Shown: positions 4,850 to 61,814 of the stretch, piece by piece
Numbering within the stretch: the stretch's first letter is position 1
Layout: each line of letters begins with the position of its first letter
Source: Loxodes magnus
Taxonomy: Eukaryota > Ciliophora > Karyorelictea > Loxodida > Loxodidae
NCBI GenBank assembly: GCA_946699065.1
Contig: CAMPDV010000372.1
Span: forward strand, 124,001-188,000
Direction of reading: 5' to 3'
Length of the DNA stretch: 64,000 nt
Translations under genes and position numbers: made by a program
The notes under the pieces: model-generated
What the model saw: the letters and a program-made list of their open reading frames with translations, nothing else
Databases searched by the model: none
What the model was told of the DNA's origin: nothing

Positions 4850-6700
4850 ACACTTTCTACTTCATCTTCTCTTTCAGCTATATCATCTTCGTCATCAGTT
4901 TATTCATTCTAATCTCCCACTTTCTCACTTTTTTCTTCTTATCCTTCTTATCTTTCTCATTTTCATCATTCTCTTCATCTTTATCTTGCTATTCCGCTTC
5001 TTTACCCTTAGTCTCAGAACTTTCTTATTATAAGTCTTTTTATAATTCGAATAATTCTATTCTCTTTTAAGTAACATCCTATTGAAAATTTTAATTTGCT
5101 GTCCAATGTATTCTATTTTGTTTTTTGGAAGTTAATTGATATAATTTTGGTAATAGGTTATTAATATTTTCTAATGTCAACTTTTTCCAATTTTTACTAT
5201 AACCATTCTCGCATATCTATATATCAATCGTATTCAGAATATGTTCAAATTAATCAAATCATCCACACATACAATGGAAATTCTCAATTAAAAATGTCTG
5301 TCTTAAAGATCCTTGCGAAAGTTGTAACTTTAGGTACTGAGTTTGTATATACTAATTATTTCTTTTCGATACTATTTATTTAGTTTTGGATAGGTAATTT
5401 ACGGGAATCATTCTAATTATTCTAAATAACTTTGCAGTGGCGTCCTTTTTAGTCTTTTAATAGTTACTTCATAAATTTATGTTGAATCTTACTTTTAATA
5501 TATTTTGTTAAAGTATTAAAGCTACTACTATATTCCTAATTATTAATATCTATTTCGAAGTATTTAGATAGTCTTGTTACTTAGTCTCTATATTAATATC
5601 CTTCTTACCAGTTTTTCTTAAAAAGGGATCCTATTGCTGACTAGGGAAGATTAATACTTTCTTATCGTATTTTGTAAAAAAATTTAAAGACCTCAGAGCC
5701 ATTATATGTTTAAATAGCATTCAGTTAAGATCTATATAGCAAGACTCATTAAAAGTATTTCCAGGTGCTTAAAAGGCTTTTCTGCTACCAATCTCATGCT
5801 TTTATCAATTTTATTTAATATTGAAGTAATTTCATTTAGATACTGATTCACCACCATATTCTGCTTAAGGAGTGTGAACATGCGGCACAAAGTCTTAAAA
5901 TATCAGGGTATCGCATTTTTATACCTAGATAATATGAATATTGCCCTTTTTATACCAGACTGATAATCAATTGATGCCTATTTGCAGTGATTGGTTATAT
6001 CTTTTTTTATGAAGAATCACTCCTAAATATAAAATTTGCTATTTTTATGTAATATCATGATTTCCAATCTTCAAGATAAATTTTTTCTCTTTTCTTTTAT
6101 GCTTTTTTAGAAACTGAATTGCTTTACATTTGGAGGCATTTATTTTAAGTTAAGTCCAATTTAATACTCTGATTGTTTCATCCATTAATGATTACATGTT
6201 CTTTTTAGATTTTGAAAGGAGTATTAAATCATTAGCCCATCCTCTGCAAGTGAAAAAGTTATTGAAGTTATTACATTTGATTCCAATACTATTCCCTTTA
6301 CTTTCTATATGTCTGATAACAATATCATAATATAACAACACTAACACTAGTCCATGAGAACTTCCTTACATTACTCCATTGTTGTATTTAATCTTTTCAG
6401 AATAGCTTCCATCTAAGTACTTTCGAAAAATATTATTAACTCTATTGATTATCAATACCAAAAAGTACTTAAAACTTTATAAAATTTAACTTTTAGAGTC
6501 AAATAAAAGACAGTCAATCCAATAAATTGCTAGGTTTAATCTGCAAGATTTTAGCAAAGAAAATAAAAGCATAAGATGATTTCCCATTATAAGAATAAGG
6601 AAAGTAATTGAATTAAAGCCTTAAAATTAAAATCGTATATCTTAAATAATAATTTCATTAGAAGTTATTTATTCTCTAGGAAGTATAAATAAAACCTAGT
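4850..6700 (-). mobile_element. LINE (non-LTR) fragment E: reverse transcriptase and C-terminal part
   Basis: Reading from high to low coordinates, the frame gives an RT core. KYLDGSYSEKIKYNNGVMQG (near 6420-6365) is the segment before the palm. It is followed by LLYYDIVIRHIE and then CRGWANDLILLS (near 6247-6222) at the YADD active-site position. Here the box is WAND, so the first catalytic Asp is replaced and the copy is probably inactive. KINASKCKAIQFLKK follows, as in the thumb region of LINE RTs. Below 5640 the frame continues to a highly charged Lys/Glu/Asp tail near 5050-4900, like the tails of the other LINE copies. The 5' part (endonuclease) is missing above ~6700. TAA/TAG are read as Gln; one TGA falls in AIP-UGA-YFKT. 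Confidence 0.8.
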
Positions 6701-7865
6701 TACTTTATAATTTAATTTTTTGGATCTCATCTTTTTAAATTCACACTTATCTTTTAGAATGATTTCGATCGTAATTATTTAATTAAGCTTCAAAAATATT
6801 TCTTAATAAGGGAAAGGAGTATTTATTCCGCTTTTTTTTCACTTTAAGTTGATAGAATAAAAAGAATTATAAACTTTAAGCTCCTTCAATAAAGGATTGC
6901 CTTATATAAATAAGTTAAATGAAAGATAACTTAACACTCAAGAAAGTATTATGATATGTTTTTAATCTTGTTTGGAAATTTAGATTTCTTAGTAAGATAT
7001 GAATAAGAATTTAGGCTTTAAAGAATCAATTTAACAGGATTTGTATTAGCTAAAATTATTTGCTTTATTTATAATGAACTGCAAATAATTTCAAACAAAG
7101 CTAAATAAAAGCTTACTGTATGATAGCAACTACATCAAATTTATATTAGCTTGAATTTTATCAAAATTATAGCTCTTCAAAGTAAGTTCTTTAAATACGC
7201 CTAATTTCAACTTTCTATTAATTAAGTTGTTTTTGAGTGTTATAAGTAAAAATAAAGTTTTCTTTATAAATAATTCTAAGTCATTAAATGAGTATTTATT
7301 TAAGAGAAATTTATAAACAAGTTAGATAATAAACATTTGGCTAGTTTATGGTTAAATAAAATAAACTTTTAGTGAATATCAATCTTTGTTGCTCTAATGT
7401 AAGCTAGCACGTTAATGATGCTTGCAATTGCTTTATAAGATAACTTAATTAATTTTTTTATTTTTACGTCTTTAAATAAAAGGCCTTTTAGTGGTATATG
7501 GTTATATTTATATCTCTATAGACATTAACTTTATAATTTAATTAAATGAAAACTTGAATATAATAAACTTAACTTACTTCTTGACAAAGCTTTATAGTCA
7601 ATTATCTTTATTTTAAATTAGATATTTTTGGCTATTAGATAGAAAATTAAATGAAACTTACAAGTAAAATAAATAATATCTTTCATTATACTTTAGCTTG
7701 CTAATATTCTTAGATATTTCTAATATTTGTATGGCTTATTATATATTTATTAAAGCTTACTAATAAAACTATTTAAGATCTAAAATTAGTTTCAAAGGAT
7801 TGAAAAAAAAACTTTAAACTGAAAAAGAAATTCATAAGCTAAATTAGAGTAGTTATGATATATTT
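6701..7865. other. AT-rich stretch, no gene recognised
   Basis: No endonuclease motif continues LINE fragment E here. A/T-rich, no repeat family member recognised. Confidence 0.45.
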
Positions 7866-9654: not shown

Positions 9655-9950
9655 TAAATAGGCTGGTCCTTACTTTTTAAGATCGCGAGAAGAACTCCCC
9701 AGAGATGAACTGACTGTGAAGCAACCTTTTCTAAATGTTGAATCTGATTAATCTCTTCATCATTGGTAGGAAATCTACCTGTAATCACCTCTTGGCGTCC
9801 TGTGCTTTGGAGATTATTAACCACAACCTTACCTACAAGATGAAGAGAGAATGCTATGGGAAAATTGGAGATTAACGAGACTTATAAATTGACTTTTTTA
9901 AAGAGATACGTCCTATTGTAGGGCTACGCACTCTATAATATCATTTTTTA
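9655..9950 (+). repeat. F7 SINE-like element (single copy)
   Basis: The body is unlike the other families except for two parts. At 9755-9810 it carries the shared module CTTCATCA...GTAATC...GCTTTGG found in F1 and F5. It ends in a hairpin remnant (TTAAAGAGATACGTCC...GGGCTACGCACTCTATAAT) followed by a T-rich tail. The arrangement of module, spacer, 3' hairpin and CTATAAT is the same as in F1 and F5, which argues for one mobilisation mechanism. The 5' boundary is estimated from base composition. Confidence 0.68.
9755..9810 (+). ncRNA. three-way-junction RNA module in F7
   Basis: Stem P1 is CATTGG/CCTGTG (one T-T mismatch, one wobble), P2 is AGG/CCT and P3 is CC/GG around the conserved GTAATC. 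Flanks CTTCATCA and GCTTTGG match the modules in F1 and F5. Confidence 0.55.
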
Positions 9951-23635: not shown

Positions 23636-23887
23636 ATAAATAATAAATTTGATTATAGAGCGCGTAGCACTCTCATTGGTGCGCAGCTCTTTAAAAAAAA
23701 TGTTTCATACTGACAAGAATGTTTGCTACTGATAAAATTATCAGATACTGGTAGACCTTGTTCAATACTGGTATAATTATTCAGTACTGATAAAAATGTT
23801 CAATACTGATATAATTTAAGAATACTCGTAATCTTTAATATTTGTTGGAGGTCCAAGGACATGGCAGGATTGTGTCTCATTGCATCA

Positions 23888-23947
23888 CCAAAGCAGAGGA
23901 CGACATGTGTCAATTATGGGTACTTAAACTCCCAACCTCTGATGAAG
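23888..23947 (-). ncRNA. three-way-junction module 2 of F1 copy 1
   Basis: Same P1 (CAGAGG/CCTCTG), P2 (GGG/CCC) and P3 (GAC/GTC) as module 1 but with a different P3 loop (ACAT) and ATAATTG. Module 2 is therefore an internal diverged duplicate. Confidence 0.6.
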
Positions 23948-24035
23948 CTCGCAATATTATTTCTTTTTCGTTCCAGAATTAAAGCTAAACTAAGCCAGTG
24001 CCGAAGGTCTAAGAATCTTATGTCTCGAGGCCAAA

Positions 24036-24097
24036 CCAAAGCAGAGGAAGACATAAAGTCGATTATGGGTACTTAACTTCCCCCACCTCTGATGAAG
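24036..24097 (-). ncRNA. three-way-junction module 1 of F1 copy 1
   Basis: P1 CAGAGG/CCTCTG, P2 GGG/CCC and P3 GAC/GTC with conserved ATAATCG between P2 and P3. Flanked by CTTCATC and GCTTTGG on the element's sense strand. Confidence 0.6.
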
Positions 24098-24423
24098 ATG
24101 ACCTTATTGCTCACCTCCGAACAACTATTTAATATTATATAATAAAGATTCTTCAGTATAATTTCTAATTATATCTGTTATGTTTATGCTTCTTAGTTTA
24201 TTAGATCTATATTATTAGTTATAGTTCTTTATTCAGTAAACTATTCTGGAAATCAGTTTAAACAGTTATCTCTTTAGAATTTACGTAAGTTGCTTATACT
24301 GATTATTCAACTACTCTAATCTTCTCTTTGGACTAAAATAAAAACTAATTCCTTTCTTATTTCTTTTGATTAATTTCATAATTATAGTTATAATATTGAA
24401 AGGTATTACACATATTAATAAAT

Positions 24424-24742
24424 AGGAAGGAGCAATCCTCCAACGGAAATTGACTTAAACTCTGGTACCAGGAAGTATCTCATAGGTGAAGAAACAATCA
24501 AAATATTGAAAGGAGATAAGAGAAGAGCGGAGAGGAATCAAGTAGCATTAATGGTGTAAGATGCCAGATACTATGGTCTTTTAGGGTAGCATTCCGATCG
24601 CGGTCCTATAGAAGACAAAACACACAAGGGAATGCTAGCACTGTGGAAGACTTTAGTAAGAAATTTTTTAAACTTTAAAAATCTTTATTAAAGAGCTGTG
24701 CACCATGAGAGGCTACGCTCTCTATAATCTCATTTATTTATA
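24424..24742 (+). repeat. F3 SINE-like element, copy 1
   Basis: It begins with the hairpin GGAGCAATCC-type 5' end (GGA-GCAA-TCC with a GNRA loop), then CTGGTACCAG. A conserved central GGTCCTATAGAAGACA comes next, then GGGAATGCTAGCACTGTGGAAG. It ends with the shared 3' hairpin (AAAGAGCTGTGCACC...GGCTACGCTCTCTATAAT) and an ATTTATTTA tail. Six F3 copies occur in the window; this one is closest to those at 48814 and 56233. Confidence 0.85.
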
Positions 24743-25090
24743 AGTAGCATTCTCATAAGATCTCAGTTTAAATTTCAACTTTAATACGATTAGCAGGTCA
24801 ATCTTAAGTCCATGTACTTTTTGACTATTATAAGAGGATATATCAATTTAAATTTTAGTTCAAATTTGTCTGAAAATAAATTTTTTGGAAAAATACAAGA
24901 TATACTTATGTTCTAAAAAGGTAACTACTTCTTAATATTATTTTAAAAAGAATATGAGCCATTAAGCATTCATTTAACTACTATGTTATATTAAATAAAT
25001 AACCATACTAAGATAAAAAGTTATATCTTGTTTATCAGTATTTATATAAAAATAAAATACAATTAATAGTCAAAACCATTTCAAGAAAAT
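24743..25090. other. AT-rich spacer
   Basis: No gene or repeat recognised. Confidence 0.45.
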
Positions 25091-29290: not shown

Positions 29291-29493
29291 AGGTTTCCGT
29301 TTAAATATAGTCTTATTGTTATTTTTGTTAATATAAGTATAATCAAGATTAATACTTTTTTTATTTTTATTTGCTTGCGATCCTACTTTAAGTTCTGGAT
29401 TGAAAATGCATAGAAGTTTCTAACCATTGTGAATTTATATATGTAATAAATTAGGTGCATTGCGAATTTAATTTCTATAATATATAATAAATA

Positions 29494-29838
29494 AATTGAT
29501 TATAGAGCGCGTAGCACTCTCGTTGGTGCGCAGCTCTTTAAATTAATTTTATTTAATGTCGAAAATTTTTTTATGGGTCTCTCTTTCCTTGTTTTCTCTT
29601 CCTGCAGTAGTCCCTGTAATTTTTCCTTCCAAAGCATAGGATGCAATATGCGATTACGGGTACATTTCCCCGGCCTATGATGAAGTAAGTTTCCTCCTGG
29701 CATTCAAAGTTCTCCAGTTTGTCACATCTTCCTTCTCTTGTATTAGGTTTCTCTTCCTCCTATTTATCCTCCATCCGCGCTCATTTTTTTGTTGCCTTGC
29801 TGGGCTTCCAAGGAAAGGACTTTCCACCCTATCTAAAT
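29494..29838 (-). repeat. F5 SINE-like element (single copy)
   Basis: On -, it starts with GGTGGAAAGTCCTTTCC (self-complementary GGAAAG-TCCTTTCC) and carries one three-way-junction module at 29685-29629. It ends with a perfect-looking AAAGAGCTGCGCACC...GTGCTACGCGCTCTATAATC hairpin and a TTTATTTA tail. Its body is otherwise unlike F1. The 67-codon frame here (29703-29500) runs through the hairpin and is not a gene. Confidence 0.78.
29629..29685 (-). ncRNA. three-way-junction module in F5
   Basis: P1 is CATAGG/CCTATG where F1 has CAGAGG/CCTCTG, a G-C to T-A exchange on both sides. P3 is GCA/TGC where F1 has GAC/GTC. P2 GGG/CCC and the GTAATC core are conserved. Confidence 0.65.
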
Positions 29839-32048: not shown

Positions 32049-34245
32049 AAGCTTAAATAATTTATTTAATAAAATAAGAATTATAATATATGAAAAAGTA
32101 AAGATCAACTTTTTTATATTAATTCAGTAAAAACAGCAATTTAATAGTTTAATAAACTTTTCGCATTTAAAGCATAAAAATGAATATGAAACCTTCAATA
32201 AAATCTATAAACATAGTATTATTCTCTTTATATCAAATTATTTTTTGTATTAGTTTTTTTATCAAAGTAAATATAAAGTAGAAATAAAGAATTTTTACCA
32301 CTTAGTTTGTAAAAAATTGTATTTAAATATCTTTCAAAGTAATAATCTTTAGTATTAATTGATAAAGTTGGAATTCAACTAAAATAGTACGACTATTTCT
32401 ATTAATGAAGCGAAACTTTTTCATCTTATATTTATTACAAAAAATACTTTTTTGATCAATAAATTAGAATTATTTTATCTATATTTTTCAAAATTCATTT
32501 TTAGCTTTAATTTTCTACTTTTTACCTCTTAATTTATGCAATTTCTTGCAGTTTTATTTTATTTTTTCTTATTTGATTTTCTTATTTCAATGCTCTTTTT
32601 TACTTTTATTTATAAGATTTTACTCCTTTTGTTTAGCTTTCTATCAAATTCCGAATATTTTATAAATATTTATCTTTTTTATGATATTTATAGAAAAAGA
32701 AATTAAAAGTGTTTAATCTTTTATAAGGTTATTTAAAAAAGTTTAATTACAAGCAAAAAAAAGAGAGAAAAATGCTTAAAAAATTTAATTTTTTCTAGTG
32801 CAAACTAAAGGAAATAAAAAAAGAGCGAAATCGATTATTAAAAGTCTTTATTCTTTTATAAAATTAAATTAATATAATGTTTAGATATTTTTCATTCTGC
32901 ATATGGTAAGAAGATTGCAAAAAATCAAATTTAAATCAAAAATAAAGATTTAAATAAAATTTATTTTTTAATAATATAAGCTTAATTTTTATGCTTCTAG
33001 ATATAATATTTCGTAATTTACTTCTAAAATATAATATCATAATCTACTAAGAAAAAGAAAATTAAATGCACTAATCAAGAATTGGAATGATAAAAATGAT
33101 TCAAAATAATAAATAAAAAAATAAAGTAAAAAAGCACTTAAAATACGAAAAATTATAAAAAAAGTTTAAAAGATTCAAAGCAATTAATAAGTTATTTAAA
33201 GTAGCAAATTATAAAAAATAAATTACCCCTTTAAAATTATAAAAAGTTTATATTAGTTTAAAAAATAATTTTGCTAAAGAGCAAAAGGATATTTTTATTT
33301 AAAAAACTACTAAATTAAAAAAAATTAAATTAATATTAATCATAGTAAAAGAATTCAAAATATTAACTAGAAATAAATAAGGGAAAATATTAAAAAATTA
33401 TATAAAATTCCATTTAAGATTAAAATATAATACATTTTACAAAAAAACTAAAGATCAAATTGAATATATTTTAAGTTTGATAAAATTTTATAAAGCATAA
33501 AATATGAAAATATGAAAAAAGACAAATAGCATTATTAAAATTGGTTTGAAAAATATATAAAAATAATTAAAATTAATAATAATCAAAAGATGAAAATCAG
33601 CGATAAAAAAAAGAAAATAACTTGAAAAAATATTATATTTTTCTATGCTGTAAAAAATATTTTGATGAAAAATCTCTTAAATTTTCAAGAATAATCAAAG
33701 AAAAACAAGAACGAACTTTGGGAGAAAAAATGTTGCTTTAAATGATAAAATTTTACTGTTTAACTAATAAATAAATTCAAAATGCAAAACATAAATTAAA
33801 TCTAGGATAAATAATTTAAACTAAATAAAGTTAAAAAATTTCGAAAATTTAATAAATATATTTAAAATAGTAAATAAAATTTGCAATTATATAGCAATAT
33901 TCTAATAAAGAAGGAAAATGTATAAAATATTTGCATTTTTATTTACATTATTGAAATAAAGAAAAAACATTTTAAAATATAGAAAATAGTTAATATGTTT
34001 TATAAATCAAAATAATAGTTTCAAAGAATCAATGAAACACGTTAAATTTAATATAAAATACTAAGGAATAAGGATTATCTTTAAAAAAAGTTTTATTGAA
34101 AAATAATTTTATTTAAAATATTAAAAATTTATTCTCTGAAAAAAATAAAAAAAGTCCAAATTAATTAAAAAATATCTTAAAAGTGAGATTCGCTCTTAAA
34201 TCAAAATTATACATTTAATTAAAAATTATTATTTAATATTAAATA
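32049..34245. other. very AT-rich block
   Basis: About 2.2 kb, with T-rich sequence first and A-rich sequence after ~32700. Long A and T runs, almost no G/C and no coding or repeat signal. Such a block is typical of intergenic ciliate DNA. Confidence 0.55.
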
Positions 34246-34273
34246 ATTGTTCAAAGGTGAGCAACAAGGACAT

Positions 34274-34335
34274 CTTCATTAGAGGGTTGGGAATTTAAGT
34301 ACCCATAATCGACTTTATGTCTTCCTCTGCTTTGG
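34274..34335 (+). ncRNA. three-way-junction module 1 of F1 copy 2
   Basis: P1 TAGAGG/CCTCTG (one wobble), P2 GGG/CCC, P3 GAC/GTC, with the conserved ATAATCG core and CTTCATT/GCTTTGG flanks. Confidence 0.58.
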
Positions 34336-34423
34336 TTTGGCCTCGAGACATAAGATTCTTAGACCTTCGGCACTGGCTTAGTTTAGCTTTAATTCTGGAA
34401 CGAAAAAGAAATAATATTGCGAG

Positions 34424-34483
34424 CTTCATCAGAGGCGGGGAATTTAAATACCCATAATTGACACATGTCGTCCTCTGCTTTGG
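34424..34483 (+). ncRNA. three-way-junction module 2 of F1 copy 2
   Basis: P1 CAGAGG/CCTCTG, P2 GGG/CCC, P3 GAC/GTC with an ACAT loop, and ATAATTG core. Confidence 0.6.
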
Positions 34484-34738
34484 TGATGCAATGAGACACA
34501 ATCCTGCCATGTCCTTGGACCTCCAACAAGTATTAAAGATTACGAGTATTCTAAAATTATATCAGTATTGAAAATTTTTATCAGTACTGAATAATTATAC
34601 CAGTATTGAACAAGGTTTATCAGTATCTGATAATTTTATCAGTAAGAAACATTCTTGTCAGTATGAAACATTTTTTTAAAGAGCTGGGCACCAACGAGAG
34701 TGCTACGCGCTCTATAATCAAATTTATTTATTTATTTA

Positions 34739-41406: not shown

Positions 41407-41738
41407 TTTTTTCATATAAATAAACTCGATTATAGAGCGTAGAACTCTCGATGGTGCGCTGCTCTTTAAATTAATTTTATTCAAAGTTAATAAAATTTCT
41501 CCTTGGAAGTTTCCTCCAGTGCTTCACTCCTTTGGAAATTCTGTCTTTTAATAGGGCATTGTCGGAGTGATGCCCCAAGAGACCTAATCGCCAGGCATTT
41601 TTCAAAAACCATTAATCAAGCCTCCAGTTCTTTCGTCTTGGCTCCTGCCAAGATTCTTTCTCAGCTTGTTGCTCCTGAAATACTTGCTGGTATTTTAAGT
41701 TAAGTTAATCTTAGTTTGAGTATTGCTCCTCCCTATTT
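41407..41738 (-). repeat. F3 SINE-like element, copy 2
   Basis: On -, it starts GGGAGGAGCAAT, has TTAAAATACCAGCAAGTATTTC in place of the CTGGTACCAG block, TTGGGGCATC...AACAATGCCCTATTAAAAGACA, and GCACTGGAGGAA. It ends with a GAGCAGCGCACCATCGAGAG...TTCTACGCTC hairpin and CTATAATCGAGTTTATTTA. It pairs with copy 4 (45936) as a subfamily. The 66-codon frame inside it is an artefact. Confidence 0.85.
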
Positions 41739-42569
41739 AAAATATATTAAATATAATATTTTCAAATTCCTTCACCCTTTTCCCAAAGAGTATTTCTTTT
41801 AATTAATATGAGTAATTTAGTGTTATTTCTAATTTCTAAATTTTCTTTTATTATGCTGAAAAATATCTCTTTGCAGATTAAAAATCCATAATTTAAATTA
41901 AAATATAAAGACAATATTGATTAACTTTGAATGTTTTAGGATTCATTTTGACGAATTGATAAATTATATGGATAATCATTTTTTGGACATTAAGATTATA
42001 TTCAGTAGCTCAGTTATAAATATAAACTCCAAGAGTAATGAATGCATACTTCAAATTTACAGGCTTCAAGCTACATCCATACAAGATAATTTCGTAAATG
42101 CATTTCCTTCAAGATCTAATATCCAACAAGGAATCTATTTAATTTCAGGGTAATATTCAGAAAATTCAAAACGATATTCCTACAATCTTTTGACTATTAG
42201 TTTTTATTAAGTTATAGCATTTTAATATTTACAATTACTTTTATGTTTTTTAACTTTTTTCTCAGTAAAGATTAAATTATTAATTTCTACTTATTGAAGC
42301 TTTATTCACAATTCTTTATTTATTTTTTTCTATTCTAATTCAATTAAACATTTAGAAACTTATATTTTCAGAAAATCTAATCTTTTACTATTGAAAATGA
42401 ATAAAAGCTTCCAAAAATTTTATTTTTGAATTAATAAAAAATGAAAGAAAAAAATTATGAAAAACATAGTTACTTTAATAAAAAGCAAAATAAAGCTAAT
42501 ATATTAAGAAGATTTAATTATATGCTAATGTAGAAACATCATAAGCATTAAATACTAAAATATATTAAA
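41739..42569. other. AT-rich stretch with an uncertain ORF
   Basis: A frame from ATG 41917 reads FDELINYMDNHFLDIKIIF then NECILQIYRLQATSIQDNF, fairly balanced for ~75 codons, but no family or supporting context was found. Everything else is A/T-rich. Confidence 0.3.
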
Positions 42570-42880
42570 AAAATTAGATTGTAAAGCGAGTAGCTCTTTA
42601 AAAAAATGTTTTATTATTTAATATAAAGGTCTTTTCGAAATCACTCCATGTGCTAGCATTCATTAGTACCAACTTTGTCTCAATAGAGCTGTGGAAAAAT
42701 GTTTTCCCTAAGAGACCTTAGAGTCTGAGAATCTTTCAACCTGTTGTTTCTTGATGCCTCAAAATCTGAGTTATTTCTTGACTCCTGCCAAGTTTTTTGC
42801 TCTTTTCTCAAACCACGAATACTTCCTAGCACCAAATTTTTTTTTCGTTGTTAGTAGGAGGATTGCATCTCCCTATTTAA
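42570..42880 (-). repeat. F3 SINE-like element, copy 3 (eroded)
   Basis: On -, GGGAGATGCAATCCTCC (5' GNRA hairpin, partly broken), CTAGGAAGTATTCGTGG, GGTCTCTTAGGG, and a 3' hairpin reduced to AAAGAGCTACTCGCTTTACAAT. More diverged than the other F3 copies, with an internal deletion in the terminal hairpin. Confidence 0.7.
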
Positions 42881-43090
42881 ACCAAACTATATAATAATCA
42901 AAAAAATTAAAATTAAGGAATTTCTTTTTTTTCTAAGCATTTAGTTTAGTCATATCTGTATATTGATAATTCTCTATATTTTTGCTATTAATGATTACTC
43001 TTATTTAAGCATTTTAACATTATGCTAATTAAATTTATCATCCTTTGATTTAAGCAAATTTTTAAACAGTGAAAATATTAGTTTAACTTA

Positions 43091-45399: not shown

Positions 45400-45930
45400 A
45401 AAATGCAAAAATATCAAAATGACACCAAAAAAATAACTAATAAGATAGTTATTTTAAATTTCATTATAATCTAAAGCATTAAAAAATTAAAAAACTAAAA
45501 TGCAGCAAAATTAAAATTAAAACTTTAAATAAGAAAATTAAAAAAATCGAAAATATATAAAAAGATCTAGAATTAAAATAAGGTAGCAAATTAAATTATT
45601 TTGAATATAAAAATAAACTAAGTTAAAATTGTAAATTCAATTAAGTGCTTGTAAAGATATTGAAATCATTATTAAGAGTTATCTAAACTTATCCAATAAT
45701 AATATATTATCGTTTTTCAAGATCATGAAGAGATTTATAGCGTTTTGATACTTAAGATAATTTATACTTATTATTTGGATTTTAGGTCAGTGACTAAAAT
45801 TCAAAATATTTCTTAAAAAAGGCTTAAAGCAACTTGTAAAAATTAATAATTTAATTTATAAGCATGATATATAATTATAATAAGCCAAAGGTAACTTGTA
45901 ATAGCAAATTCATATATTATATATAATATT
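45400..45930. other. AT-rich stretch
   Basis: A-rich. It could hold an upstream exon or the promoter of the 43934-45352 gene, but nothing can be assigned. Confidence 0.4.
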
Positions 45931-45935
45931 TTAAA

Positions 45936-46256
45936 TAGAGAGGAGCAATCCTCCAATTGAGATTAACTTATTGCATAGTACCAGCAAGTGCTTCAAGAGA
46001 AACAAACTGAACGAGAATCTTGACAGGAGCCAAGACGAAAGAATTGGAGGCATTGAGTAACGGTTTTTGAAAGATGCCTGACGATTAGGTCTCTTGGGGC
46101 ATCTCTCCAACAATGCCCTATTAGAAGACAGAATTTCCAAAGGAGCGAAGCACTGGAGGAATATTTCCAAGGAGAATATTATTAACATTAAATAAAATTA
46201 ATTTAAAGAGCTGCGCAGCATCGAGAGTTCTACGAACTCTATAATCGAGTTTATTT
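45936..46256 (+). repeat. F3 SINE-like element, copy 4
   Basis: 5' GAGAGGA-GCAA-TCCTCC hairpin, AGTACCAGCAAGTGCTTC, GGCATCTCTCCAACAATGCC, GAAGACAGAATTTCC, GCACTGGAGGAA. The 3' end is AAAGAGCTGCGCAGCATCGAG...TTCTACGAACTCTATAATCGAG + TTTATTTATTTA. It closely matches copy 2. Its tail meets the end of a minus-strand gag element at 46266. Confidence 0.87.
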
Positions 46257-46265
46257 ATTTATCAC

Positions 46266-48205: not shown

Positions 48206-48812
48206 ATTGAATTTAATATATTTTGAATCTTAATACATTCAGTTCTAATAAATTCTAAATTGTTAAATTACTCTATATTAGTGATAATTATTAATTGATA
48301 ATCAATAGAAATATAAGTGATTTTTTTATTTTATCATCATATATAAAATTACTATTTTTCCTTAATATAAAAACTTTATTTTTTCTAGTTTTCAGACAAT
48401 TTTATTAAAGAATTTTAAAACTAGTTTCATTTTACTTATTTACTAAAAATTAGATAAATATCTGAGAAAATTTTAATTCGAATAAAATTGTAAGTACAAG
48501 TAATTTTAAGTAGGATTTAACTATTACTATACATGATCCAATTTATTAAAAATAAATAATTAAATTTATTCTAATTAATACATTTTAAGTTACAATGGTA
48601 AATGTTCTTTTTGAGACACTTATTTCATTTAATGGCATTTAAATTTGCTGATACTAAATATTTTTGTAATAAAAGCATCAAAAGTATATTTTTTAACTTT
48701 TTTTGTTTAAATCATTTATATTATTTAATTTTTGCTTAAGAATAGTTTAAAAGTTTTAAAATTAAGAATTGAAGAAAAATGTAAAAAAAACGAATTTATT
48801 ATTAAAATAAAT
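48206..48812. other. AT-rich stretch
   Basis: No gene or repeat recognised. Confidence 0.5.
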
Positions 48813-48813
48813 A

Positions 48814-49116
48814 GGGAGGAGTAATCCTCCAAATGAAACTGGCTTAAACTCTGGTACCAGGAAGTATCACATAGGTGAAGAACCAGCCAAGAGGAGAGAA
48901 GACAAGATCGAAGAGGCATCAAGTAGCATTAATGATGAAAGATGCAAGATACTAAGGTCTCTTAGGATAGCTTTCCGATCTCGGCCCTATAGAAGACAAA
49001 TTCACAAGGAAATGCTAGTACTGTGGAAGACTTCAAATAGAATATTTTTTAACTTTAAAAATCTTTATTAAAGGGCACCATTGAGGTGCTACGCGCTCTA
49101 TAATATCATTTATTTA
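48814..49116 (+). repeat. F3 SINE-like element, copy 5
   Basis: 5' GGGAGGA-GTAA-TCCTCC hairpin, CTGGTACCAGGAAGTATCAC, GGCCCTATAGAAGACA, AAGGAAATGCTAGTACTGTGGAAG. The 3' hairpin is shortened on its left arm (AAAGGGCACCATTGAG) but keeps GTGCTACGCGCTCTATAATATCATTTATTTA. Close to copies 1 and 6. Confidence 0.85.
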
Positions 49117-49139
49117 TAATAATAACAATATTAATTTTA

Positions 49140-53883: not shown

Positions 53884-54290
53884 ATAAAAATGATTATAGA
53901 GCACGTAGCACCTCGTTGGTGTTCAGCTCTTTCAATATTAATATTAAAAAAAGTGTTCTCATACTTCTTGTTGCCATTATATCTGTCTAGTAATCACATC
54001 AGCTTCTCCAAATGAAGAATCTGCTTATTAAAAATTATTATTGAGGCTTAACTAAATGATCCAATCTTCTTGAATAAGATCTAAATAAGAATTAGTTATT
54101 AAATCATTATTATGTTCATCTGTCAAACGTTCATACTGCCAGCGAGAACCCTCAGGCAAGTTAGGTTTGTCTCTTACAATCTTATCCATTCTTCCCAGAA
54201 ATGGCATCTAGCGCGAGATTATTGGTAATGCAGTATGCACTCCACCAAATAACCTATTAGTTCTTTTGACCTTGCCGTCATCAATATTTT
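53884..54290 (-). repeat. F4 SINE-like element, copy 1
   Basis: Read on -, it starts at ATATTGATGACGGCAAGG and ends with the shared hairpin GAGCTGAACACCAACGAG-GTGCTACGTGCTCTATAATC and an A/T tail. The body (~340 bp) is unlike F1/F3/F5/F7. It has a frame of ~110 codons without TGA reading e.g. DKPNLPEGSRWQYERLTDEH, so it may be the 3' end of a coding element. Copy 2 lies at 58213. Both copies begin at the same base, which argues for a defined element, not random 5' truncation. Confidence 0.82.
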
Positions 54291-54789
54291 TTATATATAA
54301 TAAATTAATTTTTTAACTAAGTTAATTTATGAAAAAAATGGCATTAATCAAATAAAAGATAAAAGTAATTATTTAATTTAAATTTAAAATTATTGAATAT
54401 ATAGTTATTAAAAATAAAAATATTTTACAGTTATGTTAAAAATCAATTTATAAAGGAGAAATTTAAATTTTATTTTAAGATTAAAGCAAAATTATTTATT
54501 TTAATATAAATATTTTAGTCTTAAATTTTAAATTTTTAAAGTCAAAATTTTTAAATAAATTTAAATATTTTAAATCATATTTTTTAAGTTATTCGAAAAT
54601 AATTTTTAATTAATATCACTTCGTTGAAAGAATCATAGTCATACTTTTCAAATAATTAGCAATTTTCAGATTTTAATTTACTTTTATGAACCTCAAAAAA
54701 TATTTTTTTAATTATTGATTTAAAATTTATATTTAATCCTTGTTGCTTCTTTAAAATTTAAATTTTAGATAGCGTTTTAAAAATTAAAT
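54291..54789. other. AT-rich stretch
   Basis: No gene or repeat recognised. Confidence 0.5.
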
Positions 54790-56110: not shown

Positions 56111-56232
56111 GTTTGTAGATTTTGAGCATTTCAGACTTTAATATAACTGTCTTTAAAATGCTATAAATACTAAAATAGTTACCACTGAGTAGAATAAGTT
56201 GATCAATTATTATATATAATTGATTTTAAATA

Positions 56233-56535
56233 GGGAGGAGTAATTATCCAACTGAGATTGACTTAAACTCTGGTACTAGGAAGTACCCCATGGATGAAGA
56301 ACCGAACAAGAATCTTGGTAGAAGTCAAGAGAGATAAGATTGAAGAGAAATCTAATAACTTTATTGATGAATGATACTAGATACTCTTAGGGAGTATTCA
56401 GATAACGGCCCTATAGAAGACAAGACTCACAAGGGAATGGTAGCACTGTGGAAGATTTCAACGAAGAATCTCTTTTACTTTAAAGAACTTGATTAAATAG
56501 CTGCACGCCATTGGGATGCTACGCGCTATATAACC
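56233..56535 (+). repeat. F3 SINE-like element, copy 6
   Basis: 5' GGGAGGAGTAATTATCC (hairpin partly broken), CTGGTACTAGGAAGTACCCC, GGCCCTATAGAAGACA, GGGAATGGTAGCACTGTGGAAG. The 3' hairpin is TAAATAGCTGCACGCCATTGGGATGCTACGCGCTATATAACC, degenerate, with a T-rich tail. Confidence 0.83.
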
Positions 56536-57000
56536 TTAGTTTTTTTTTTAAATATTAATGCTAAACTTAATAACCAACAGATTTTTATTCCACAATATCT
56601 TGCGAAGCTAAAATCAGAAAAGTAAAGAATATAAGTTTAAACCCAGGCTTAATAGTAACTGTATGCATTAAAATAGTACAAGCTACTAAACTATCCTCCA
56701 AACAGGAAAATAAAATAAAATGTGTAATCTTATAATCTTCTATATATAAGAAGAAGGTATCACTGTATTCATCATAATAGTACTATTACATTTTTGTATC
56801 CGTATTTATCTAGAAATATCAGAAAGTTCTAGAAAACTATTATTAACGTAAAAAGAGTGCTAGCAATATTTAAAATTATCAATCTTATGATTTTGCATCA
56901 GCTATTGCTTTATATGATATAGTATATATTTCAGAGGTAGTAGGATTAAGATTTATCATTATAATTTACCAATGTAATAGAAAAAGGAATAATAGGCAAA
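56536..57000. other. no gene recognised
   Basis: Mixed A/T-rich sequence between F3 copy 6 and a gag element. No motif found. Confidence 0.4.
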
Positions 57001-57560: not shown

Positions 57561-57715
57561 CAATCTTTCTTCCCATTTGAGAGAACCCTTTAATAAGTTA
57601 GGCATATCTCCCAAAGCTCGACTACCTTTATTATGGTGACAACTCTTACAAGATTACTCATAATACTGTCTACACTGTACCAGATTACCTGCTAGACTGT
57701 CAAAAATTTAGAATC
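57560..57715 (+). repeat. F6 short repeat, copy 2 (partial, eroded)
   Basis: Matches the distal part of F6: ACAACTCTTACAAGATTACTC, then TACTGTCTACACTGTACCAGATTACCTGCTAGACTG against GCAGTCTACACTGCAGTGGATTACCTACTCGGCTAACT. The hairpin is imperfect. Confidence 0.5.
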
Positions 57716-58212: not shown

Positions 58213-58612
58213 TAATGATAACAAACTTAGTACCTCATTGATGTTCAGCTCTTTCAATATTAATATTAAAAAAAGTGTTCTCATACTTCTTGTTTCCCTT
58301 ATATCTGTCTAGTAATCACATCAGCTTCTCCAAATGAGGAATCTGCTTATTAAAAATTATTATTGAGGCTTAACTAAATGATCCAATCTTCTTGAATAAG
58401 ATCTAAATAAGAATTAGTTATTAAGTCATTATTATGTTCATCTGTCAAACGTTCATACTGCCAGCGAGAACCCTCAGCCAAGTTAGGTTTGTCTCTTACG
58501 ATCTTATCCATTCTTCCCAGAAATGGCATTTAATGCGAGATTATTCGGAATGCAGTATGCACTCCACCAAATAACCTATTAGTTCTTTTGACCTTGCCGT
58601 CATCAATATTTT
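58213..58612 (-). repeat. F4 SINE-like element, copy 2
   Basis: About 97% identical to copy 1 over the body. The terminal hairpin is eroded (GAGCTGAACATCAATGAGGTACTAAG) with loss of the GCTCTATAAT arm. The start ATATTGATGACGGC is the same as in copy 1. The high identity of the body indicates recent mobility. Confidence 0.83.
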
Positions 58613-61045: not shown

Positions 61046-61346
61046 ATTTAAAAAAGGAATATAATAAGTCTCGAGAAAAGAGTAAAATAGAACTTTAAAA
61101 TGATAAAAAATAAGCTATCAAATTATCTTTGGCTATTTTAATGAAAAAGGGATTTTTTTAGTTTTTTTAATTTTACTTATTCTTCACTAATAATTAAAAA
61201 ATATAAATCTTATACTTCTTTCTCAAAAATATACCTAAATTTAATTATTTAAAATACTCAGACTATAAATCATAAAATTTGATAATTTATTATATATATA
61301 TTTTTTAAAACCGCCATAGTTGTTCGAAGGTGAACAACAAGGTCAT

Positions 61347-61408
61347 CTTCATCAGAGGTTGGGGAAGTTAAGTACCCATAATCGACTTTATGTCTTCCTC
61401 TGCTTTGG
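61347..61408 (+). ncRNA. three-way-junction module 1 of F1 copy 3
   Basis: P1 CAGAGG/CCTCTG, P2 GGG/CCC, P3 GAC/GTC, ATAATCG core and CTTCATC/GCTTTGG flanks. Confidence 0.6.
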
Positions 61409-61501
61409 TTTGACCTCGAGACATAAGATTCTTAGACCTTCGACACTGGCTTGGCTTCGTTTATTTTTAATTCTGGAACGAAAAAGAAATAATATTGCGA
61501 G

Positions 61502-61561
61502 CTTCATCAGAGGTGGGGAATTTAAGTACCCATAATTGACACATGTCGTCCTCTTCTTTGG
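61502..61561 (+). ncRNA. three-way-junction module 2 of F1 copy 3
   Basis: P1 CAGAGG with CCTCTT (one pair weakened), P2 GGG/CCC, P3 GAC/GTC, ATAATTG core. The GCTTTGG flank is TCTTTGG here. Confidence 0.55.
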
Positions 61562-61814
61562 TGATGCAATGAGACACAATCCTGCCATGTCCTTGGACCT
61601 CCAGCAAGTATTAAAGATATCGATTATTCTGAAATTATATCAGTATTGAACATTTTTATCAGTACTGAATAATTATACCAATATTGAACAAGGTTTACCA
61701 GTATCTGATAATTTTATCAGTAAGAAACATTCTTGTCAGTATGAAACATTTTTTTTTAAAGAACTGCGCACCAAAGAGAATGCTACGCACTCTATAATCA
61801 AATTTTTTATTTAT

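Follow-up and report, generated by a model that had tools for sequence, protein, structure and literature searches.

A short module that recurs in three otherwise different elements of the Loxodes magnus genome, F1, F5 and F7, is in our reading a conserved structured RNA domain of non-autonomous SINE-like retroposons with a putative docking role. We consider this reading as a whole to be moderately probable, and folding of the module as RNA to be very likely. The stretch of DNA analysed (64,000 nt, hereafter the window) has a G+C content of 25% and comes from an assembly of 705,730,643 bases in 7,843 contigs. It contains eight copies of the module: three F1 elements carry two copies each, and one F5 and one F7 element carry one each. 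A covariance model built from these eight copies, run with default filters, detected no further copies in the window at E-values up to 10. The module pattern CTTCATNNNNGG..TAAT..CCNNNNCTTTGG has 8,352 exact matches in the genome (4,127+4,225) and the reversed pattern 0+0; thus, the recurrence in three different elements claimed by the original prediction is borne out. The window elements other than F5 are located as follows:

9655..9940, plus strand: F7 element, module at 9755-9810
34226..34719, plus strand: F1 element, modules at 34274-34335 and 34424-34483; start approximate
61300..61799, plus strand: F1 element, modules at 61347-61408 and 61502-61561; start approximate
23651..24145, minus strand: F1 element, modules at 24036-24097 and 23888-23947; start approximate

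At the F5 locus the minus strand of 29629-29685 reads CTTCAT-CATAGG-..-CGGG..CCCG-TAATC-GCA.TGC-AT-CCTATG-CTTTGG, with P1, P2, the joint, P3 and P1' arranged as had been described from the sequence alone. The parts of this element are:

29490..29838, minus strand: F5 element, from the start TTTAGATAGGGTGG to the tail; fits the consensus of 13 F5 loci, ends approximate
29686..29689, minus strand: 5' strand of P0, CTTA (family consensus CTTT); this copy has A-A at the innermost pair
29680..29685, minus strand: CTTCAT, invariant internal-loop strand
29674..29679, minus strand: CATAGG, 5' strand of P1
29669..29672, minus strand: CGGG, 5' strand of P2
29657..29660, minus strand: CCCG, 3' strand of P2
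29652..29657, minus strand: joint RTAATY (here GTAATC, the G of which also closes P2); TAAT is invariant in the eight copies
29649..29651, minus strand: GCA, 5' strand of P3
29643..29645, minus strand: TGC, 3' strand of P3
29635..29640, minus strand: CCTATG, 3' strand of P1
29629..29634, minus strand: CTTTGG, invariant internal-loop strand
29625..29628, minus strand: AAGG, 3' strand of P0
29498..29537, minus strand: 3' tail hairpin shared by F5 with the other families; its exact 24-mer occurs 3,278 times in the genome

In the proposed fold, an outer helix P0, variable in sequence between families, would enclose an internal loop with the invariant strands CUUCAU and CUUUGG, in which the C-G and U-G beside P0 may pair. 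P1, with 6 bp, would lead into a three-way junction formed by hairpin P2, joint RUAAUY and hairpin P3, and P2 would carry a conserved GGAA..UACC loop. When the eight window copies were aligned, 96.8% of 95 pair cells were standard, compared with 43-58% after the 3' side had been slid, and 3 of the 12 pairs changed on both sides. The covariation score was 0.205 against a shuffled mean of 0.068, and none of 500 shuffles scored as high, in a control that leaves the relatedness of the copies in place. One of the three double-changed pairs lies in P2 and is unsound: the P2 variant AGG/CCT ascribed to F7 proved to be a mutation of the single window copy, and the F7 consensus of 27 loci reads TTGG..CCTG with a U-U mismatch at that pair, so that P2 gives no family-level compensation. 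A double change at P3 pair 3 is missing from this analysis because F5 is gapped at that column.

The between-family changes predicted for P1 and P3 were recovered. P1 is CAGAGG/CCTCTG in F1 and CATAGG/CCTATG in F5, a double change at one pair (pair 3: G-C in F1, U-A in F5, U-G in F7), and all six pairs can form in the F7 consensus CATGGG/CCTGTG, two of them as wobbles; in the window copy of F7 this helix contains a T-T mismatch. P3 is GAC/GTC in F1 and GCA/TGC in F5, with double changes at pair 2 (A-U in F1, C-G in F5 and F7) and pair 3 (C-G in F1 and F7, A-U in F5), and F7 provides a third variant, GCC/GGC (CGCC/GGCG). The P3 strands of one family pair with each other at 3 of 3 positions and with those of another family at only 1 or 2 of 3; for P1, combining strands across families leaves 5 or 6 of 6 positions paired.

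Helix P0, which is absent from the original prediction, forms in each of the four consensus contexts from strands unrelated in sequence: AGGTCA/TGGCCT (F1a), TATTGCG/TGCAATG (F1b), CTTT/AAGG (F5) and AATCT/AGATT (F7). Its summed score of 47 compares with 22.8 +/- 4.8 and was reached in none of 20,000 shuffles, and among 24 permutations the true pairing scores best. The shuffle figure is somewhat flattering, since the helices were already known when the flanks were picked. By eye P0 looks weaker in some F1 loci. It was also predicted by RNAalifold on the flanked alignment. The minimum free energy (MFE) fold is the junction for the F1a, F1b and F5 consensuses, with P1 pair probabilities of 0.64-0.91; for modules without flanks it is the junction in F1a_34274, F1b_34424, F1b_23888 and F5, and other folds are found in the remaining four copies.

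Several results weigh against the fold. The junction of the F7 consensus lies 5.7 kcal/mol above its MFE, complete elements of the window are not more stably folded than shuffled sequences (z of 0.19, -1.29 and 0.39), and the RNAalifold covariation term is small (-0.39). Only three lineages (F1, F5 and F7) vary, and the independent compensatory events are therefore few. The large-alignment covariation check proposed with the original prediction, run within F7, revealed no excess of compensated pairs among 44 distinct copies, the P3 mutations of which are uncompensated (p 0.60). This result fits copies that decay after insertion and adds no support.

Conservation of the module at the DNA level, as an internal promoter or protein-binding boxes with only incidental pairing, would account for the uncompensated decay of F7, for the 34 invariant columns out of 62 with their long invariant strings, and for the pairs that never vary (3 of 6 in P1, 2 of 3 in P2 and 1 of 3 in P3). 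It does not predict the double changes between families at P1 pair 3 and P3 pairs 2 and 3, nor P0 pairing kept with four unrelated sequences, and we regard it as distinctly unlikely. The proposal of selection on a folded RNA thus stands on the P1 and P3 double changes, the four P0 helices and the invariant loop and joint letters, and fails for P2 compensation and in the within-F7 comparison.

To describe the elements, consensuses were derived from 27 F7 loci, 13 F5 loci and 8 double-module F1 loci, some of them near-duplicates, and the element ends are fixed in all three. F5 and F7 begin with TTTAAATAGGGTGG, and F1, F5 and F7 all end in a conserved 3' hairpin, AGAG..CTCTATAAT (also written AGAGC..GCTCTATAATC), followed by ATTT repeats in F1 and F5 and mostly by a T-run in F7. 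The 5' ends are intact, the family start being present in 67 of 68 module loci. Similarity between the consensuses is limited to the module (both F1 copies), the tail and the 14-nt start of F5 and F7, all other hits having E >= 0.06; one body domain is therefore present in families with different heads. The module begins about 100 nt from the 5' end in F7, 163 nt in F5, and 43 and 194 nt in F1, which usually carries two modules and also exists in a single-module form. Between the second module and the tail, the F1 elements at 23651-24145, 34226-34719 and 61300-61799 contain repeated ATCAGTATTGAA-like units.

Since the pattern has thousands of exact matches in the genome, the module is part of an abundant repeat. 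It does not stand alone; SINE-like repeats have it as a common domain. Most of the 100 module-pattern matches listed are F1-type. Patterns with F5-type ends (..CCTATGCTTTGG) have 539+512 genome matches and those with F7-type ends (..CCTGTGCTTTGG) 51+37, a few of the latter being F5-like; the control was 0 for both. A pattern with altered P1, in which the second P1' base is not C, gave 289+280 matches against 61+71 for its reverse. By eye, the 100 altered-P1 matches listed are chance matches plus mutated F1, F5 and F7 copies, with no clear new family among them; two of those listed (C68:570817 and C76:500668) are odd. Module patterns searched in viral contigs gave 0 and 0 matches.

The tail 24-mer has 1,586+1,692 genome matches (control 0). 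When 67 tails from the loci and the window were scored, with overlapping loci counted apart, the nearest family was F1 for 33, F5 for 21, F7 for 4, A for 6 and D2 for 1, and 2 were unclassified; one of these two (L007) closes a coding-like stretch. Six matches to the tail that had none of the listed modules close by were examined and turned out to be five F5 elements with mutated modules and one F1. Family A also has this tail and a weak likeness at the start; it starts near AAATAGGGAGGAGYAATCCTCC and has its own body, in which no module was found by pattern or model. D2 contains a coding-like stretch (GGVHTALPIISRQMPFLG..), and related stretches lie at 57567, 60894 and 63264. The window copies are:

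24417-24743, plus strand: family A
45930-46262, plus strand: family A
48806-49119, plus strand: family A
56225-56549, plus strand: family A
41431-41761, minus strand: family A
~42577-42900, minus strand: family A
53892-54370, minus strand: D2 element, ending in the shared tail or a decayed form
~58225-58600, minus strand: D2 element, ending in the shared tail or a decayed form

Newer elements adjoin the AT-rich tails of older ones at L011 and L046 (an F5-like start after an F1 tail; an A start after an F7 tail), which suggests that they were inserted into the older tails.

As expected of SINEs, F1, F5 and F7 are short (the distance between the start motif and the end of the tail is about 250-490 nt; one row of 1,455 nt in the length set spans two elements), multicopy, non-coding and dispersed, with thousands of dispersed matches. 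Together with the intact 5' ends, the common 3' hairpin and the simple-repeat end, this indicates that they are probably LINE-dependent SINEs, and their retroposon nature is likely. As SINEs they are incomplete: searches revealed no target-site duplications, no partner LINE and no clear pol III boxes. For target-site duplications, 46 elements gave a mean of 7.89 against 7.98 in 223 mismatched pairs, hence no signal, and AT-rich flanks could mask short ones. No A box was found in the F1, F5 and F7 consensuses, and promoters of this organism may differ; B-box-like hits are weak, with up to 2 mismatches, and confined to F5 and F7. The one overlapping the F7 module would suit a promoter function at the DNA level, but T-runs of 5-7 a short way upstream of the tail in each of the three consensuses argue against it, because T-runs terminate pol III. 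If pol III stops there in this organism, transcription by pol II is more likely.

No LINE carrying the shared tail was found in the loci sampled. LINE-like frames are present in the window and are sensible when TAA and TAG are read as Gln: the ORF at 5967-6740 on the minus strand, translated with code 6, matches RVT_1 in a Pfam search (E 7.3e-11), and no family was matched by ten further window ORFs. What looks like a decayed non-LTR retrotransposon can be read on the minus strand between about 29400 and 27000; it includes an FCGDFNA-like sequence, which we take to be a LINE motif. A LINE reading frame lies directly downstream of F5 in the same orientation in the window (29300-29835, minus strand) and also at L025 and L063, which have a 2.6-kb duplicated segment in common; the arrangement thus occurs at two seemingly independent places. 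The F5 and LINE stretch of the window is found again on contig C993 with 99.7% identity over 3.1 kb (L001 and L002).

The statement that the fold belongs to no known class holds for Rfam 15, which gave 0 matches at the gathering cutoffs in the whole window. When a single locus each of F5, F1 and F7 was scanned by E-value, no SRP, tRNA or 5S match appeared, and none of the sub-cutoff matches in these loci is to the fold class of the module; the best is to a family of C/D snoRNAs and lies on the other strand from the tail (23.4 and 21 bits at a cutoff of 50, E 0.14 and 0.77). Nothing pointing to a tRNA or 5S origin was found by ARAGORN (tRNA) or Rfam.

Derivation of a SINE head from 7SL, as in Alu, or from tRNA or 5S was weighed against the organism's own SRP RNA as well. 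For this RNA 30 matches were listed on three contigs, 29 of them over the cut-off, with a best score of 103.1 bits (Metazoa_SRP 101.6 bits); the roughly 30 gene copies are clustered on contigs C421, C93 and C273 (L075, L076). The architecture of the SRP Alu domain, with a stem, a hairpin, a short U-rich joint and a second hairpin, is like that of the module; F1 is dimeric, as Alu is, and F7 reads CCUGUAAUC, which we take to resemble Alu. In its 5' domain, UCC GGAGUAGUCGCGAUACUC UGUUAC GCCGGCGGC GGGA, however, the SRP RNA has the joint UGUUAC and a first stem shorter than that of the module. The best blastn hit between the module and the SRP locus was 10 nt long (E 0.12) and outside the SRP gene, and inside the gene the unfiltered module model R1 scored no higher than 7.6 bits (E >= 1). 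Descent from 7SL is not supported by these sequence comparisons, and a head of 7SL, tRNA or 5S type is very improbable. The ordinary tRNA, 7SL or 5S derivative named beforehand as the outcome that would count against the prediction was found neither by Rfam, nor by ARAGORN, nor in the organism's SRP RNA.

Self-cleaving ribozymes trim the transcripts of R2 and Penelope-like elements, and the module, as a compact junction RNA that lies in retroposon-like repeats and has invariant letters in its single-stranded parts, might act likewise. A transcript-trimming ribozyme is nevertheless highly unlikely here, as the position of the module within the element varies, sequence is kept on both of its sides, and no Rfam ribozyme family was matched in the window or in one F5, F1 and F7 locus each. 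F1 has a hammerhead-like CTGATGAAG on its other strand; by eye, F5 has not kept it. Origin from a decayed protein-coding element with a zinc-knuckle-like frame is extremely unlikely: one minus frame at F5, read by hand, gives CILCFGRKNYRDYC, but the module lengths of 62, 60, 57 and 56 nt allow no single shared reading frame, and the overlapping ORF 28880-29995 matches nothing in Pfam at E up to 1.

As the families differ in all but the domain, the tail and, for F5 and F7, the 14-nt start, one job for the domain in every family is most likely, and module and tail would both be needed. Recurrence and modularity of the domain, its pairing at the level of families, the common tail and the intact 5' ends are observed; we infer transcription, retroposition by a LINE and protein docking as the steps of the preferred reading, that of a structured domain of SINE-like retroposons. 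A protein or ribonucleoprotein, either from the host or encoded by a LINE, may recognise the invariant loops and would bring the element RNA to the reverse transcriptase, and the shared 3' tail hairpin would be the start site of reverse transcription, as in stringent LINE/SINE pairs. Docking by the module is a tentative proposal. A further extension, which we think rather unlikely, is a docking domain of 7SL-independent origin with an Alu-domain-like solution, in which a two-hairpin junction and a U-turn-like joint would recruit a ribosome- or LINE-associated protein; it would have passed between unrelated SINE-like families by exchange and been doubled in the seemingly most abundant one.

Animals are already known to have SINE superfamilies in which a central domain is shared: several central domains are named and selective constraint is suggested (PMC8010984), and SINE/LINE pairs including CORE-, V- and DeuSINEs are listed (PMC3747384). 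The CORE, V, Deu, Ceph, Inv, Pln, Snail and Meta superfamilies likewise have a short body domain across different heads and LINE-type tails, a likeness at the level of description. Unlike CORE-, V- and Deu-type SINEs, F1, F5 and F7 have no detected tRNA or 5S head, ciliate-code LINE frames, a pairing-supported fold, and a domain that usually occurs twice in F1. For 7SL-derived SINE1, compensatory changes are taken as selection on the fold, and SRP9/14 binding is proposed to deliver Alu RNA (PMC7245038). The module has a stem with two hairpins, a short linker and a dimeric form in common with this group (Alu, B1 and the hagfish SINE1-1_EBu), and differs from it in the 6-bp P1, the extra P0, the conserved internal loop, the joint RUAAUY and an origin other than the organism's SRP RNA. 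Stringent LINE/SINE pairs have a shared 3' hairpin followed by a simple repeat (PMC5135761); F1, F5 and F7 resemble them in the hairpin and the simple repeat or T-run and differ in that no LINE with the tail was found in the loci sampled. From the Paramecium tetraurelia germline, a code-6 organism, putative SINEs are described as multicopy, non-coding and beside LINEs (PMC5405496); by description they may be likened to F1, F5 and F7. In the open-access library, titles and abstract openings retrieved with the terms used contained no report of a structured SINE domain in a ciliate.

One reading of why SINE families keep a common short central domain ties the domain to reverse transcription (PMC8010984). 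With a concrete proposed fold, invariant loops beside variable helices and thousands of copies, the module could make RNA and DNA function separable, and it would add a structured RNA with no Rfam match.
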